Below are positions 2,236 through 58,013 of a stretch of 64,000 bases of DNA, piece after piece (positions within the stretch are counted from its first letter, which is position 1; every line of letters starts with the position of its first letter). The notes beneath the pieces are model-generated. The model did no database searches. It had not been told where the DNA came from and worked only from the letters and a program-made list of their open reading frames with translations. The stretch comes from an uncultured Methanobrevibacter sp. Lineage in GTDB: Archaea > Methanobacteriota > Methanobacteria > Methanobacteriales > Methanobacteriaceae. The DNA is taken from positions 62,001 through 126,000 of the forward strand of contig OMVY01000005.1 of the NCBI GenBank assembly GCA_900314635.1, in the 5' to 3' direction. The translations under genes and the position numbers were made by a program.

Positions 2236-2249
2236 AAGGGGACTTTCTT

Positions 2250-3686
2250 ATTTTAAAACAAGACTTAGAAAAGATTTTAAACGAATATTTAATCGCTAGA
2301 GAAACTGTTGGAGATATCTCCCATCCAATCGCTCGTTTTATCAAAGAAGATTTTGCACAAGACCTTAAAACTTATTTTGATAGTTCAGATTTATATATTG
2401 TAGCATCCCCTGGTCAAGGTGCATTAGCCAGAGTTCCTTGGGCAGCCATTACAGCAAATCGATATGAAAATGAAAGATTAGGAATAGATATAGCTTATTT
2501 GTTTAAACCAGACATGACAGGAGTGTATTTATCATTAAGAGTTTATTTTTATCAAGGACTTCACCATAAATATGGAAAATATTTGTCAACTTATATAAAA
2601 AATAAATCATGGCATATTAGAGATTTTTTAGCAGAATCTAATAAGATTAGGGACGATTTATTAATTGAAATTGATTTAGGTGATGAAGGTCAATTAGCTA
2701 AAGTTCATAGTTTAGGAACTATAGTTGCAAAGTATTATGATGCATCAAATCTTCCATCTACTGAGGATTTAGTTAGGGATATAAACTATTTTTTAGATAT
2801 TTATAATTTTATTTTAGAAAATTATAATGAAAAGACAGATATTTCAGTAGATGAATGGATTGAAGTTTTATCAAATAAAGATATAATTGATAGCAAAATG
2901 TACTCTATTTTACAAATTATGAATACTTTTGAAAATAAATCTGCATTATCTTCTCAAATTGCAGAAAAAAGAAAAGAATTAGGATTTGATGATGAAAAAT
3001 CATATAATCCAACTATAGTTCATAATTCAAGAAGAGTAAAAGAATATTTAAATAAAAAAGCTATTATTGGCGAAGATGGAAAAGAAATTTTTTGGATGAG
3101 ATTTTTCTATGGTAAAGACAAAAAAGATGGTTTTGAATTTAAATTAAAAAAAGAATTAATTGAGGCTTTGGAAACTGTTGATAGAGATATAACTGAAGAG
3201 GGTGAAGATTGTATGAAGAATGAAAATTATGATTCTTTTTATGATTATCTTGTAGAAAAGGAATATTTATTTGATAAGGAAACAATTGAAAATTATCTAC
3301 TTTCTTTGAAAGTAAAACCATTTGCTATTTTGACTGGTAATTCTGGAACAGGAAAAACTAAATTATCTCAGCTATTTGCCCAATACCTTAATGATTCAGA
3401 ACAGACTATTGAAAATGAAATTAATTCTATTAGTACAAAAGTACTTGTAGGCAGGTCTTTTAAAAGCGGTGGATGGGCTTTGAATAAAAATGATTTAAGA
3501 GATTTAATTCCAATTGATGAGTTTGAAAATAATTATTCTATTCTTGTAGATGGTTTTCCTGCAAAAGGAAATCTACAAGTGAATCCTCGTTTATTTTATA
3601 AAGGAGATGAATTAAAGCAACATCTTAAGGAATTGGCAGAAGAAGATGAAAGACAGAAAGTTCCTTTAGAAATTTTACTTGATTAA
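2250..3686 (+). CDS. Fragment 1 of the McrB-like protein: DUF3578 N-terminal domain, Walker A and first insert module
   Basis: If translated from ATT at 2250 this piece is 478 residues. It holds the MrcB N-terminal DNA-recognition-like domain (about residues 1-160), a helical linker, Walker A (GNSGTGKTKLSQLF) and one roughly 85-residue module containing GGWALNKNDLRDLIP and ILVDGF. A gene finder restricted to ATG/GTG/TTG would begin at the TTG at 2499, which cuts the conserved domain and has no ribosome binding site. It ends at the TAA at 3684, exactly between two of the repeated modules. Confidence 0.6.
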   Translation: MLKQDLEKILNEYLIARETVGDISHPIARFIKEDFAQDLKTYFDSSDLYIVASPGQGALARVPWAAITANRYENERLGIDIAYLFKPDMTGVYLSLRVYFYQGLHHKYGKYLSTYIKNKSWHIRDFLAESNKIRDDLLIEIDLGDEGQLAKVHSLGTIVAKYYDASNLPSTEDLVRDINYFLDIYNFILENYNEKTDISVDEWIEVLSNKDIIDSKMYSILQIMNTFENKSALSSQIAEKRKELGFDDEKSYNPTIVHNSRRVKEYLNKKAIIGEDGKEIFWMRFFYGKDKKDGFEFKLKKELIEALETVDRDITEEGEDCMKNENYDSFYDYLVEKEYLFDKETIENYLLSLKVKPFAILTGNSGTGKTKLSQLFAQYLNDSEQTIENEINSISTKVLVGRSFKSGGWALNKNDLRDLIPIDEFENNYSILVDGFPAKGNLQVNPRLFYKGDELKQHLKELAEEDERQKVPLEILLD

Positions 3687-4301
3687 AGCATTAAAAAAGC
3701 TTCGGATGAGGACACTTATATAACTTTACAAACAGATAATGTTCATTTAAATAATGGTGGGTTTGGTTTAGGAAAGAAAACCGTATGTTCATTATTAGGT
3801 CTGGACAAATATGAAGGAATTGTGGATGCCTATTTTGATGATATAAAATCAAGTGAAGATATTTATATAAGCACAAGGGCTGGAACTCGTGATGAAAAAT
3901 TAATTAATCATTTAAATTCATTAGAAAATTTATCAGGCATTGAAATAAAAATTAATAAGAAAGACATAATTGATACTTTCTTAGATGAGGAATCTAAAGG
4001 AAATGAAAAGATTTTAAGCTTTAAAAGAAAATTAGGCAAGTATAATAATTGGGTAATACCTAAAAATGATTTACATAACATTTTACCTGTAAAAAATAAA
4101 TATTCTTGGAAGGCTATAGTGGATGGTATTGAAACTACTATCGATTTTTGGATACATGATGTTCTTATTTTGGCCTCTTCTTCTGAAAATGAAGAATTAA
4201 ATGAATATTTAAATAGTAAAAATTCTGAGGATATTTTAAATATTAAACTAGATTTGTCCACTTTTAAATATAATGAAGAAAAATATGATTTAGATATTTA
4301 A
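3687..4301 (+). CDS. Fragment 2 of the McrB-like protein: two further insert modules between the stop codons
   Basis: The frame stays open between the two TAA codons and continues the same protein. It encodes two more modules related to the one in fragment 1: GGFGLGKKTVCSLLGL followed by GIVDAYF, and NNWVIPKNDLHNILPV followed by KAIVDGI. A GTG at 3822 is the first conventional start but has no ribosome binding site and lies inside a module. I do not recognise the module family. A role as a modified-DNA reader inserted into the AAA+ core is a guess. Confidence 0.45.
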   Translation, partial: SIKKASDEDTYITLQTDNVHLNNGGFGLGKKTVCSLLGLDKYEGIVDAYFDDIKSSEDIYISTRAGTRDEKLINHLNSLENLSGIEIKINKKDIIDTFLDEESKGNEKILSFKRKLGKYNNWVIPKNDLHNILPVKNKYSWKAIVDGIETTIDFWIHDVLILASSSENEELNEYLNSKNSEDILNIKLDLSTFKYNEEKYDLDI

Positions 4302-4499
4302 ATTGATAATGTTTTAAAAAATGATTTAAATGAAAGTTCAAATTACAAAATAATCCCAGTAGGTGCCAATTGGACTGAAAACAGACACATAGTAGGTTAC
4401 TACAACGTAATCACAAACGAGTACCAATCCACACCTGCTTATGACTTAATACATGCAGCAAACAACTCTACAGAACCACATTTCCTCATACTGGACGAA

Positions 4500-5228
4500 A
4501 TGAACCTCTCCCATGTAGAACGCTACTTTGCTGACTTCCTATCAGCTATTGAAAGTGGAGAGAAAATACCACTATACGGAGAGGAGGAACTTACACTACC
4601 ACAAAACCTATTCATTATAGGAACAGTAAATGTAGATGAAACCACATACATGTTCTCTCCAAAAGTTCTTGATCGTGCCAATGTCATAGAATTCGAAACC
4701 TATTCTGCTTCTGATTATATGAATAGTAAAATCAATCTAAACTCTCCAGAAGGAGATATCGCATATTTGGAAAATCCATTGGTGGGAAATGAAATCCGTG
4801 ATTATGGAATAGATGAATTAAGAGACTTTTTCGAAGATGTTACTGTAGATGGAGAACCATTCTGGAATATTTTAACAGAAGAAATATCCACTTTCCAAGA
4901 AATATTAAAGGAATCTGGATTTGATTTTGGATTCCGTGTAATAAATGAAATAGTTCGTTTCATGGCTGTAGCCTGGGAATATGAAGGTAAACCTCCTGAA
5001 TTCAAAAACTGGAAACGCTACTTTGATGCCTGCATAAAACAAAAGCTATTGCCAAAACTACACGGCTCTGAAAAGATTATCGGAGAAACATTAGACAAAC
5101 TATACAAAAAGTGTGTAGACAATTCATTTGACACTAAAGAAACATCAAAATATCCGGAATCTACAAGAAAATTAAAGGAAATGAGAGAAGTTTTAAGAAA
5201 ACAACGTTACGTATCATTCATTAATTAG
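4500..5228 (+). CDS. Fragment 3 of the McrB-like protein: Walker B, sensor 1 and AAA+ lid
   Basis: The open frame runs from after the TAA at 4299 to 5228. The first ATG, at 4500, falls inside the Walker B motif (LILDE-MNLSHVERYF), so it cannot be the native start. The piece carries the sensor 1 segment NLFIIGTVNVDETTYMFSPK, then LDRANVIEF and the helical lid. Codon use changes sharply near 4340 to the more C-rich style of the neighbouring 3' genes. Without Walker A the fragment cannot bind nucleotide normally. Confidence 0.6.
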   Translation: MNLSHVERYFADFLSAIESGEKIPLYGEEELTLPQNLFIIGTVNVDETTYMFSPKVLDRANVIEFETYSASDYMNSKINLNSPEGDIAYLENPLVGNEIRDYGIDELRDFFEDVTVDGEPFWNILTEEISTFQEILKESGFDFGFRVINEIVRFMAVAWEYEGKPPEFKNWKRYFDACIKQKLLPKLHGSEKIIGETLDKLYKKCVDNSFDTKETSKYPESTRKLKEMREVLRKQRYVSFIN

Positions 5229-7261: not shown

Positions 7262-7786
7262 TTATACTTTTCCTAAGTTCTCTCCAGTATAACTGATTCC
7301 GATAGCATCAACCACTTCTCCATCAGCATTTGATATATAACAGATGTACATGCTTCCATCATCTTTAACATTGCTGACGTATGCTCCGTCTTCCTCAATG
7401 AATCCACTAGCTATGGATTTTGCTTGAGAGGAGCTAATTTTAGTTGGAGTTTGTGAACCGCCTGAACTTCCAGAACCGCCGGATCCGGATCCGCCACTTG
7501 AACCTGAACCTGAACCGCTTCCACTGCTTCCACTGCTTCCACTTGAACTGCTTCCACTACTGGAAGGAGAACTAACTCCGCTGGAGACACTTGAACCTTG
7601 TCCTTGATTTGAATCATTAGCTACTAAATCTCCAATGCCCTGGCTTCCAGAATCAGAACTGTCCGGTGTGAATCCGGTCAGATCATTGAATACAGGATTA
7701 TTTCCTTCGCTTAATCCATAAGCGGTTACTCCTGCTGCTATACTTAAAACAATTATAATGGATATTATAATATTTGAATTATTCAT
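7262..7786 (-). CDS. Membrane-anchored Ser/Gly-rich surface protein with a small C-terminal domain
   Basis: 174 residues. An N-terminal hydrophobic segment (IIISIIIVLSIAAGVTAYGL, about residues 5-24) should act as signal anchor. Residues about 60-110 are a low-complexity Ser/Gly linker. The C-terminal 60 residues (from KISSSQAKSIASGFI to ISYTGENLGKV) resemble a PepSY-like fold, often found in surface or peptidase-associated proteins. The start is set by GGAGGTG five bases before the ATG. The linker DNA is repetitive (TCCACT/GCTTCCACT units) and may vary in length. Function unknown. Confidence 0.75.
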   Translation of the reverse strand: MNNSNIIISIIIVLSIAAGVTAYGLSEGNNPVFNDLTGFTPDSSDSGSQGIGDLVANDSNQGQGSSVSSGVSSPSSSGSSSSGSSGSSGSGSGSGSSGGSGSGGSGSSGGSQTPTKISSSQAKSIASGFIEEDGAYVSNVKDDGSMYICYISNADGEVVDAIGISYTGENLGKV

Positions 7787-40188: not shown

Positions 40189-40788
40189 TTATGCATTTCT
40201 TTGCTTGTAATACTCTCCGCTCATATGTGATCCCCCGGCGTAATAATCATAATGGCCAGGACCATAATAGGTATAAGTATCACCGTCAGGCTTGGTAACA
40301 GTAACAGGATTGTCAGGAGTCGCATCCTGATGGTCATCATCCCAGCCGTCCTCATAATAAGGATCGCTTGATATTGAACTGGATGATGTGCTTGTGGTTT
40401 GGACTGCCTTTTTATAAACACTTATCTTGATGTCGTTGAATTCGCAGGATTTATATCCGTCTCCACCTTCAAACCGTGCAGAAATCGTATAGTTTCCTTC
40501 ATCCAACTTATCAGAGATGGAAACAATTCCCTTTTCATCACTTGAAATCGTGTAGTTTTTAGATTCACCGTCAGAACTTACAAGTTCTGCATAAACCCTT
40601 TGCCCTGCAACTGATTCATTATTAGAATCCACTAGGCGGAAATCAAGATAATCATCAGTAGAAATGCTGGTTCCATCGATTATGAAGTGGGTATCAATAT
40701 TCTGGCTGTCAATTACAAAATATGCTGAAACTCCCCCTATAATCAAAATTACAAAAATGCAAATAAAAGCAAGACTGCTTGTCTTAAT
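40189..40788 (-). CDS. Membrane-anchored Ig-like surface protein, probable ATT start
   Basis: About 199 residues if started at ATT 40788, which lies exactly five bases after GAGGTG and restores a full signal anchor (TSSLAFICIFVILIIGGVSA). The TTG at 40746 would cut through that helix and has no ribosome binding site. An Ig-like (Big-type) domain follows (FRLVDSNNESVAGQRVYAEL to KISVYKK), then a Ser/Thr linker and a Tyr/Gly/Asp-rich C-terminus (YYGPGHYDYYAGGSHMSGEY). Neighbour of zinc-ribbon and adhesin genes. Function unknown. Confidence 0.7.
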   Translation of the reverse strand: MKTSSLAFICIFVILIIGGVSAYFVIDSQNIDTHFIIDGTSISTDDYLDFRLVDSNNESVAGQRVYAELVSSDGESKNYTISSDEKGIVSISDKLDEGNYTISARFEGGDGYKSCEFNDIKISVYKKAVQTTSTSSSSISSDPYYEDGWDDDHQDATPDNPVTVTKPDGDTYTYYGPGHYDYYAGGSHMSGEYYKQRNA

Positions 40789-40816
40789 ACTACCACCTCT
40801 TAATTATTTAATAGAA

Positions 40817-46227: not shown

Positions 46228-46670
46228 TTAAAATTTAATATTTATATTGGCTAATTCCGCTGCTTTTTTAATATCCCAGGAAGACAAGTGTGATACTTTC
46301 AATATATCATTGATGGAATACCCTTCTTTCAACATTTCAATAACCATCTCAAGCTTACCTTCAAGCCCGCCTTTTTTCATTCCTTTTTCCATACCTTTCT
46401 CAATACCTTTCTCTTCATAATCCAAAAAGATTGATGGAACATATTCAGACATTTTCAAAACCTCCTTAATCCTTTTCTTTCTTTTATCATCTTTCACCGT
46501 TTCATCTAAAAACCAAGCTTGACATTCTCTAACCAATTTTAAATCATCCTCATCGGCTATGACTTCATCAGTCATCATGCAAGTTTTTTCAAAATAAACT
46601 TCACAGCATTCGTCAAGGACCATGAGATGCAATAGAATCAGATCAAATATATCATCACTTGAAAGTCTCT
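46228..46670 (-). pseudogene. Truncated tandem copy of the Rpn-type nuclease gene
   Basis: It matches the last half of the next gene almost base for base (FEKTCMMTDEVIADEDDLKL to SINDILKVSHLSSWDI). It lacks the nuclease core and a ribosome binding site. Its C-terminus (ELANINIKF) is probably the original end of the full gene. It has two fewer copies of the 12-bp EKGI unit than the full copy. Confidence 0.85.
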
Positions 46671-47554
46671 ATATTAGCTAACTCTGCTGCATTTCGAATA
46701 TCCCAGGAAGACAAGTGTGATACTTTCAATATATCATTGATGGAATACCCTTCTTTCAACATTTCAATAACCATCTCAAGCTTACCTTCAAGCCTGCCTT
46801 TTTTCATTCCTTTTTCCATACCTTTCTCAATACCTTTCTCAATACCTTTCTCAATACCTTTCTCTTCATAATCCAAAAAGATTGACGGAACATATTCAGA
46901 CATTTTCAAAACCTCCTTAATCCTTTTCTTTCTTTTCTCATCTTTCACCGTTTCATCTAAAAACCAAGCTTGACATTCTCTAACCAATTTTAAATCATCC
47001 TCATCAGCTATTACTTCATCAGTCATCATGCAAGTTTTTTCAAAATAAACTTCGCAGCATTCATCTGGAACCATAAGATGCAATAAAATCAAATCAAATA
47101 TATCATCACTTGAAAGTCTCTCTTTATTGCTATTTTTTTCTGTTATATCATTTAAATGTTTATTTCCGTCCATATCCTTAAACCATATGATTTGCGGAGT
47201 AAACCTTAAATTATCAAGCAGTTCTCCATATTTAAAGTCTTTTTCATGCCCAGATAATGCCAGAATCACTGTTTTCACACTCATCCCAAACTCAATGGTG
47301 GCTAATGAATTATACCTGTGAAAAGTCGATATCGCCTCCTTATCAATTCTTGAGCTATGTGGTTCAAAGTCAATAGCTCGATTTTTCTTAACTTCCATAA
47401 GGATATCCATTATTTTTTTATGGCCATTTTCATCAATAAATTCAGTTCGAAGAAATCTAACGAATACCTCCATTATTTTAAAATAGTCAAGAAATCTTTG
47501 AGGATGACGCCAGAACAGAATTTTGAATACTTTATCTTTAGATTGAAATACCAC
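46655..47554 (-). CDS. Rpn family recombination-promoting nuclease/putative transposase (PD-(D/E)XK)
   Basis: 299 residues from GTG 47554, five bases after GGAGAAA. The N-terminal half is the PD-(D/E)XK-type Rpn/PDDEXK_2 domain (TEFIDENGHKKIMDILMEVK with the E-x-K motif, then RIDKEAISTFHRYNS). The C-terminal half has EKGIEKGIEKGMEKGMKKG repeats and a small helix-turn-helix-like end (GYSINDILKVSHLSSWDI). The last four residues, ETFK, and the stop codon come from the duplication junction and replace the native end. Rpn proteins promote RecA-independent recombination in bacteria; the role here is inferred. Confidence 0.82.
   Translation of the reverse strand: MVFQSKDKVFKILFWRHPQRFLDYFKIMEVFVRFLRTEFIDENGHKKIMDILMEVKKNRAIDFEPHSSRIDKEAISTFHRYNSLATIEFGMSVKTVILALSGHEKDFKYGELLDNLRFTPQIIWFKDMDGNKHLNDITEKNSNKERLSSDDIFDLILLHLMVPDECCEVYFEKTCMMTDEVIADEDDLKLVRECQAWFLDETVKDEKRKKRIKEVLKMSEYVPSIFLDYEEKGIEKGIEKGIEKGMEKGMKKGRLEGKLEMVIEMLKEGYSINDILKVSHLSSWDIRNAAELANIETFK
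46804..46863. repeat. 12-bp coding repeat (EKGI/EKGM)
   Basis: CAATACCTTTCT units occur three times in the full Rpn gene (after related CCATACCTTT units) but once in the truncated copy at 46390-46412, a 24-bp difference. Confidence 0.85.
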
Positions 47555-47916
47555 AAAAATTTCTCCAAAATTTTTTATAAACTAGAATCTTTAAAAAAAT
47601 TCCACAATAATACTAGTATTTTATGATATTTAAATCTTGTTAAAAATGCTTTATTTTTAAAATAAAAACTTAAAAACTTGTTTTAAACTTAAAAAAGTAT
47701 TATAAACATAAAATTAAATTATTAAATGATAAAAAATTTTCAGATTAAAAATTAAAAGACAAAATAGAAAAAAATTTTTACTTGAAAATAAAAATCCAAC
47801 CTGATAAAAAATTCTTACTTGAAAATAAAAATCCGACCTGGGAAAAAATTCCAGATTTAAAATTCTTCCACCAGTTGAAATCGATTAAAAAAAAAAGTAA
47901 TAAATAGAAATAGCTG
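47555..47916. other. 362-bp AT-rich gap with a 37-bp direct repeat
   Basis: CTTGAAAATAAAAATCC(A/G)ACCTG occurs at about 47781 and 47818, a 37-bp period. No gene seen. It should hold the promoter of the Rpn gene and the 3' end of the hydrolase transcript. Confidence 0.45.
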
Positions 47917-56339: not shown

Positions 56340-56346
56340 GGAGGTG
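56340..56346 (+). promoter_or_regulatory. Ribosome binding site that decides an ATC start
   Basis: GGAGGTG at 56340-56346 ends on the first base of the in-frame GTG (56346-56348), so that GTG cannot be used efficiently. Five bases downstream stands ATC (56352), in the spacing used by other genes here. Confidence 0.55.
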
Positions 56347-56351
56347 TGGAT

Positions 56352-58013
56352 ATCTCTAGAAAATTTACTATTTTTTTATTATTAATCATTTTAACAATCA
56401 ATATGGCTGCCATATCCGCAGCCAGCGATAATGGAGAATCAACCATTGAGGATATTGCTCCAGAATCAGACACTAATTTGAATATTGAATTGCAAGAAAG
56501 TGATTATGACAACGAATTGCAAGAAACAAGCAATTCAAACACAAAATCACAAGAAAATAACCCACACAACGAATTGCAAGAAAGTGATTTAAACAACGAA
56601 TTGCAAGAAACAAGCAATTCAAACATAAAATCAGAAACAGATGCTGATGATTCTGCAGAAGAAGAGATTCAAAAGAATGACACCATAATTACTTCAAATT
56701 CAAATAAGTTCTATTATGGTGCTTACTTCAAGGTGACACTTAAAGACAACTCTTCCAACCCAATAAAAGACAGCCCCCTAGTTTTTAAAGTAAATGGTGA
56801 AAATCATACAAGTATCAGCGATGAAAATGGAACAGCGAACTTGAATATTAAATTAAGTCCTGGAACATACAGCATTGAAGTTAACTACGATGGAAACGAA
56901 AGCTTGAATCCATATAACAAAACATTCACAATAACTGTTTTAAAAAATGTTCCTAAGATCACAACAAGCACAAATTGTGTGTTCAGAGGAAAATATTTCC
57001 ATGTTTATTTGAAAAATGCAACAGGATCCGCATTGAAAAACCACACGGTTTACTTCAAACTCAATGGAAAAACATATAAAAGATATACTGATGATAACGG
57101 CAGAGCCAGTTTGAAAATCACAACCAAGACCTACAAAAACAACTTAACAATTAGTTTCAAAGGAAAAGGAGACTACGCTGCAGTTTCTAAAACCATAACC
57201 ATGAGGGTCAAGATAAACCCTTCAAACAAGAATTCAATATGGGTTTGGACAAGGGACATGAAAAAAGTTCCTTTTTCAACTTTAAAGAAAAATGGAATAA
57301 AAAATATATTCATACACGAAAATACCGTTTATGTCAGTGGATTTAAATCCTGGCTTAAAAAAGCAAATAAAAAAGGTTTTAAAGTCCATATTTGGATGCA
57401 GTGCTTCTATAATGGCAAAACATGGCCTAAGCCATGCTCCAAATCTGGAAAGATAAATACTGCATTGCAAAAGAAGCTGATTAAAAAAGCAAAGACATTT
57501 GCAGGCATTAAAGGTGTTTCAGGCATCAATCTCGATTATATCCGTTTTGGAGCAACAGCCCCAAAATATAAGAATGCAGAATATGCCATCACCCTTACTG
57601 TGAAAAAATTAACACAAACCATCAAATCCAAAAATAAAAACTGCATAGTTTCCAGCTCTGTTATGGCAGATGGTGTGGAAAGCAATGTTTATTATTATGG
57701 ACAAAACCTGACCAAAATGTCTGAATATGTAGATGTGATTGTTCCAATGGCTTATAAAGGCAATTATAAAAAAGACCGTCATTGGATTAAGAATACAAGC
57801 TCAAGCTTTAAAAAAGCAATTGGTGGAAAAGCCCAGCTTTGGGTCGGCCTTCAAGCATACCGCAGCGACAATGATATTCGAAAATGGTCCAAATCAGCAC
57901 TCACAAAGGATATAAAATATGCATTTAAAGGCGGTGCAGACGGAATCGTATTATTCAGATATGGATTGACCCGATTTGTAAACATTCCAAAAATTAAAAA
58001 AAGCATTAAATAA
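56352..58013 (+). CDS. Secreted glycosidase-like protein with N-terminal Ig-like domains
   Basis: About 553 residues from ATC 56352. The signal peptide is KFTIFLLLIILTINMAAISA. A low-complexity Asn/Glu/Ser region with repeated NELQETSNSN follows, then two Ig-like domains (about 110-290). The C-terminal 260 residues resemble a TIM-barrel putative glycoside hydrolase of the DUF4015/GH-like type: VSGINLDYIRFGATAP (the D-Y-I-R motif with an acidic residue), VDVIVPMAYKGNY, and GADGIVLFRYG. It is probably exported to the cell surface and may act on pseudomurein or extracellular polysaccharide. Confidence 0.75.
   Translation: MSRKFTIFLLLIILTINMAAISAASDNGESTIEDIAPESDTNLNIELQESDYDNELQETSNSNTKSQENNPHNELQESDLNNELQETSNSNIKSETDADDSAEEEIQKNDTIITSNSNKFYYGAYFKVTLKDNSSNPIKDSPLVFKVNGENHTSISDENGTANLNIKLSPGTYSIEVNYDGNESLNPYNKTFTITVLKNVPKITTSTNCVFRGKYFHVYLKNATGSALKNHTVYFKLNGKTYKRYTDDNGRASLKITTKTYKNNLTISFKGKGDYAAVSKTITMRVKINPSNKNSIWVWTRDMKKVPFSTLKKNGIKNIFIHENTVYVSGFKSWLKKANKKGFKVHIWMQCFYNGKTWPKPCSKSGKINTALQKKLIKKAKTFAGIKGVSGINLDYIRFGATAPKYKNAEYAITLTVKKLTQTIKSKNKNCIVSSSVMADGVESNVYYYGQNLTKMSEYVDVIVPMAYKGNYKKDRHWIKNTSSSFKKAIGGKAQLWVGLQAYRSDNDIRKWSKSALTKDIKYAFKGGADGIVLFRYGLTRFVNIPKIKKSIK

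Follow-up and report, generated by a model that had tools for sequence, protein, structure and literature searches.

Does Methanobrevibacter begin some of its proteins at AUU or AUC? The question was raised by a stretch of 64,000 nucleotides (the window; C17:62001-126000 of the source genome G000, a Methanobrevibacter draft of 2.29 Mb in 36 contigs), in which the first-pass annotation had pointed to three such codons placed where a Shine–Dalgarno (SD) site would set the start. AUU, AUC and AUA are written AUH below (ATH in DNA). The sequences it gave were exact, namely GAGGTG-GTAGT-ATT at 40799..40786 (minus strand), GGAGGTG-TGGAT-ATC at 56340-56354 (plus strand) and GGGGACT-TTCTT-ATT at 2238-2252 (plus strand). 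The conventional genes set beside them, said to start about five bases after a GGAGGTG-like site, are all real starts; the description of the site fits those at 7786, 22119, 52589 and 53182, which have GGAGGTG or GAGGTG, and not those at 47554, 49503 and 61550, where only GGAG or GGGTG is present. Two neighbouring minus-strand frames of the window, 46228-46668 and 46655-47581, both contain a near-identical stretch (IFDLILLHLMV.DEC), suggesting partial duplication.

The proposed ATT start at 40786..40788 (minus strand) would head a membrane-anchored or secreted protein of 199 residues (IKTSSLAFICIFVILIIGGVSA...; 40189..40788), for which no Pfam family was found. Its SD site, GAGGTG at 40794..40799, is a 6-mer match to AGGAGGTGATC and stands at the aligned spacing of 5. 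The five codons between the in-frame stop and the ATT are TTA AGA GGT GGT AGT, and because none of them is ATG, GTG or TTG, a conventional start upstream is impossible. The conventional call, TTG 40746, is in frame, has no SD and lies within the hydrophobic segment, half of which would be lost by starting there; from the ATT, an intact signal or anchor peptide is restored. Homologues have ATG, their Met-1, at the residue aligned with the ATT (MNTKDIIYIC.. versus IKTSSLAFIC.., aligned by eye). The conventional codon of the relatives is thus found at the same residue and not elsewhere, which argues against refutation of the ATT by orthologous starts. With the spacing that the SD dictates, no workable conventional start and a position kept in homologues, the ATT at 40788 holds up as a predicted start codon.

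The ATC at 56352..56354 (plus strand) follows GGAGGTG at 56340..56346, also at aligned spacing 5, and would begin a secreted Ig-like or putative glycosyl-hydrolase-domain surface protein of 553 residues (ISRKFTIFLLLIILTINMAAISAASD...; 56352..58013). The only other start, GTG 56346, is in frame and shares its first base with the final G of GGAGGTG, and because of this overlap it cannot be placed by the SD. Two paralogues in G000 (C10:69712 and C10:72459) have ATT at the equivalent residue, so that the position is kept here as well, and with the near-cognate start the signal or anchor peptide is again intact, as had been claimed for both genes. Judged on these features, the putative ATC start also holds up. 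No close orthologue of either gene with the same near-cognate codon was found, and the support comes from paralogues and homologues.

Chance was dropped as an explanation on a spacing test covering 780 kb of G000. Frames of at least 100 codons were scored if the SD was a 7-base match to AGGAGGTGATC and the frame stayed open upstream for no more than 30 codons, short or out-of-range frames having been filtered out before the counts. At spacing 5 the codon was ATG, GTG or TTG in 25 cases, ATH in six and anything else in none, against an ATH background (taken from spacings 10-40) of 0.45 per spacing (Poisson P 8e-6; binomial P 2.9e-5), more than chance would give. The ATH peak occurs at aligned spacing 5 only; at spacing 0, ATH was found in 3/3 as well, the ATC at that place being part of the motif. 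The ATC at 56352 is among the six, and without it the non-canonical codons at spacing 5 are still 5/5 ATH. With its 6-mer SD, the ATT at 40788 falls outside the 7-mer set and within the 6-mer set, in which the 16 non-canonical codons at spacing 5 comprise six ATH and ten others, so that this larger set also holds codons that are not starts.

The effect is not uniform, since the comparison samples differ. An 800-kb sample of G003, a congeneric relative whose complete, isolate-like genome is a single contig of 2,937,203 bases, gave 13 canonical codons, 2 ATH and 4 others (P 0.04). The corresponding counts were 6, 4 and 2 in G042, from another genus (P 9e-5), and 9, 0 and 1 in G063, from a third genus (g5), where 0/10 sites were ATH. 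Some candidates were rejected along the way. The QueE gene of G003, with ATT at spacing 6, has an in-frame GTG inside its SD, and a recurring GGAGGTG-N5-ATT-GAAAA match probably starts at a TTG one base later in another frame (by eye). An enrichment of ATH starts in signal-peptide genes, scored by a crude hydrophobicity rule, was also set aside: in G000, 17 signal-like ORFs had ATH 7, canonical 7 and other 3, versus ATH 11 and canonical 79 in the remaining 164 ORFs (Fisher P 0.0024), and in G003 there was no enrichment (signal-like ORFs, ATH 2 and canonical 13, n=20; others, ATH 12 and canonical 49, n=117).

The alternative that survives best is that translation starts at a nearby conventional codon, either GTG or ATG in or just before the SD or TTG or ATG in the signal peptide, and that the ATH is an isoleucine codon or part of the leader. 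Besides GTG 56346 and TTG 40746, it can draw on a conserved protein of ~190 residues that carries a zinc ribbon (Pfam PF13248) at its C-terminal end, encoded at L131:1425-1994 (minus strand; own-genome copy G000:C17:182933-183502). Relatives of this protein occur in 31/59 Methanobacteriaceae genomes (E ≤0.001), many of the weaker ones matching by the zinc ribbon only, and also in 33 named loci. Start regions from 55 loci were compared, of which 10 were dropped as identical. In the 45 distinct sequences the start codon is ATT (27), ATA (12), ATC (2) or ATG (4), that is, ATN in 45/45 and not ATG in 41. Entropy is zero at bases 1 and 2 and 1.47 bits at base 3 (46 longer distinct fragments); upstream of this codon the sequence varies freely, stops included, and downstream it is conserved as protein. 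An in-frame ATG, GTG or TTG lies at -9, inside the SD, in 21 of the 41 non-ATG sequences, and annotation would pick these triplets. In nine others the upstream canonical codon is farther off (six with TTG at -18, ahead of the SD, and three with more remote codons), and 11 have none back to the previous stop (all by eye). Because L158, L160, L161 and L186 keep ATT or ATC without any in-frame upstream start, the comparison suggests that the -9 triplet is incidental. Moreover, the substitution of ATG for ATH in place in four sequences is expected of a start codon and not of an isoleucine codon. In the structure model of the protein (mean pLDDT 72.5) a strand-strand-strand-helix repeat occurs twice, an arrangement reminiscent of AP2-like DNA-binding domains; a Foldseek search of the model against PDB gave no match at E ≤0.001.

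Two families of surface proteins also speak against a conventional start, their loci having been chosen by likeness to window proteins or to another gene family and not as a random sample. In family A (ISKKI.FTLI...), GGAGGTG-N5-ATA is present in 7/7 distinct sequences, six of which lack an in-frame upstream canonical start and three of which have none within the first 60 codons downstream. Family B has TGAGGTGAANNN-ATT in 10/10 distinct sequences, with ATT at SD+5. The TGA in TGAGGTGAANNN is an in-frame stop overlapping the SD, which leaves the NNN codon as the sole place for a different start; this codon is ATG in two sequences, and the other eight have no ATG between the stop and the ATT. 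Across all 17 frames with the family B motif, the codon at the start place is ATT in 10, TTG in 4, ATG in 2 and GTG in 1. On the side of the conventional start there is also an ATG 12 bases downstream in L004 and L005. Weighing these observations together, we regard this alternative as improbable.

The start position is kept in relatives in the zinc-ribbon family and in families A and B. As far as comparison of sequences can show, AUH sits where the SD would place the start, and its first two bases and its position have been kept in evolution. For a coiled-coil protein (L042:6649-7440, plus strand), the SD points to an ATT within this genus, and homologues from other genera show ATG or GTG there or close by. 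Several members of this family also have ATG in frame 12 bases before the ATT; as an AUH case the family is ambiguous and carries no main weight here. A separate observation concerns a surface-protein frame of 1497 codons on the minus strand of G003 (offset 753645), in which GGAGGTGAAAAA-ACG, with ACG at SD+5, precedes a signal peptide and could represent an ACG start; this ACG is one of the four other codons counted at spacing 5 in that genome.

A second alternative traces the near-cognate codons to sequencing errors or to the decay of starts in genes that are being lost, and it can point to the third case of the first-pass annotation. The ATT at 2250..2252 (plus strand) is a candidate start behind the weak SD-like GGGGACT (2238-2244), a poor anti-SD match. 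The McrB-like gene that it heads (2250..5228, plus strand), with an MrcB_N domain, is open apart from in-frame TAA codons at 3684-3686 and 4299-4301; it does not have the uninterrupted frame of an intact McrB restriction gene and is likely a pseudogene, the remnant of a decayed restriction gene. G003 has the same GGGG..CTT-ATT context, with the frame shifted just downstream. Because both copies look damaged, a start at 2250 is doubtful even though the context is common to them; conservation of the start position in relatives was not found in this case, and the proposal of a near-cognate start here is not confirmed. Although it heads a decayed gene, this ATT may belong to the AUH class. The state of G000, a draft, would also favour errors. 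Against this, frames of 553-1497 codons remain open behind the near-cognate codons, and identical codons turn up again in other species and in a genome assembled as one contig, a cross-species conservation that disfavours both decay and error. Since the complete genome of G003 has the same pattern, this pattern is not only an assembly error of draft bins. We give this alternative very little credence.

It is thus our strongly favoured reading that Methanobrevibacter and its near relatives start some genes at AUU, AUC or AUA about five bases after a strong SD, that 40788 and 56352 are members of this class, and that the ordinary initiator reads these codons. As part of the same explanation, large surface proteins with signal peptides would be prominent in the class, which would also include at least one conserved zinc-ribbon protein. 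What had been offered as a real use of AUU and AUC, to be extended to AUA, has good support in the spacing test, the ATN starts of the zinc-ribbon family and the conserved near-cognate starts of the surface families.

In the mechanism that we propose, a strong SD (GGAGGUG or most of it) would put the AUH ~5 bases downstream and so fix the position of the start. The ordinary initiator Met-tRNA (anticodon CAU) would pair with bases 1 and 2 and tolerate a mismatch at the third, and because this tRNA would read AUH the protein should still begin with methionine. Among 37 matches to tRNA genes, the 30 that were typed are ordinary, and only tRNA-Met(CAT) and one tRNA-Ile(GAT) appeared; no type was called for the intron-bearing locus L068, and some of the seven untyped matches lie inside typed neighbours. 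The tRNA at L067 has base pairs that are, we presume, typical of archaeal initiators. A dedicated second initiator with anticodon GAU or UAU, considered because all three AUH codons are in use, found no support among these typed genes and is hardly credible. With the ordinary initiator, a near-cognate codon would probably lower initiation and make it sensitive to start-codon fidelity, that is, to aIF1. In the account given in parts of PMC6237735, aIF1 sets archaeal fidelity by destabilising complexes on non-AUG codons; because of this destabilisation, a lower or tunable output might be expected.

Near-cognate starts as such are already known. The infC gene, encoding IF3, starts at ATT in Escherichia coli and ATC in Streptomyces, and IF3 represses its own translation (excerpts of PMC5472188). 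In the genes described here, as in infC, an SD is followed by a conserved start that is AUH and not AUG; these genes differ in being many, archaeal and mostly for surface proteins, whereas infC is one bacterial gene under IF3 autocontrol. IF3 is, moreover, a bacterial factor, and the archaeal fidelity factor is aIF1 (excerpts of PMC7531240 and PMC6237735). In Streptomyces sigR, a conserved non-canonical GTC start lowers output and is misplaced by annotation (excerpts of PMC5472188). That case involves GTC, a single regulator gene and repression shown by experiment, in contrast to ATH starts recognised from sequence alone. The archaeal start codons named in extracts of PMC7531240 are AUG, GUG and UUG, and those extracts on archaeal initiation contain no occurrence of AUU or AUA; the SD and the spacing of the AUH starts are the same as in such SD-led AUG, GUG and UUG initiation. 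For prokaryotes, extracts of PMC5622118 give one AUG-to-AUU switch in 61,358 ancestral AUG starts, as opposed to 6/31 strong-SD starts with ATH in the 780 kb of G000. The open-licence PMC literature, with subscription papers lying mostly outside it, yielded no description of AUH starts for Methanobrevibacter or of their clade-wide use in archaea.

Gene finders limited to ATG, GTG and TTG misplace AUH starts, with signal peptides cut off and surface proteins annotated without an export signal. This bears on rumen and gut methanogens, whose surface proteins are discussed as vaccine leads (excerpts of PMC2812497). The AUH genes also form a natural, conserved set for testing start selection in archaea (aIF1, aIF2), whose machinery resembles the eukaryotic one, and they make it feasible to test in Methanobrevibacter whether expression is controlled through the start codon. 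More tentatively, the surface-protein and zinc-ribbon genes on AUH could constitute a start-codon regulon, in which aIF1 activity or the state of the ribosome would set the amount of surface protein. If true, this possible arrangement would be an archaeal counterpart of IF3 control, spanning dozens of genes.
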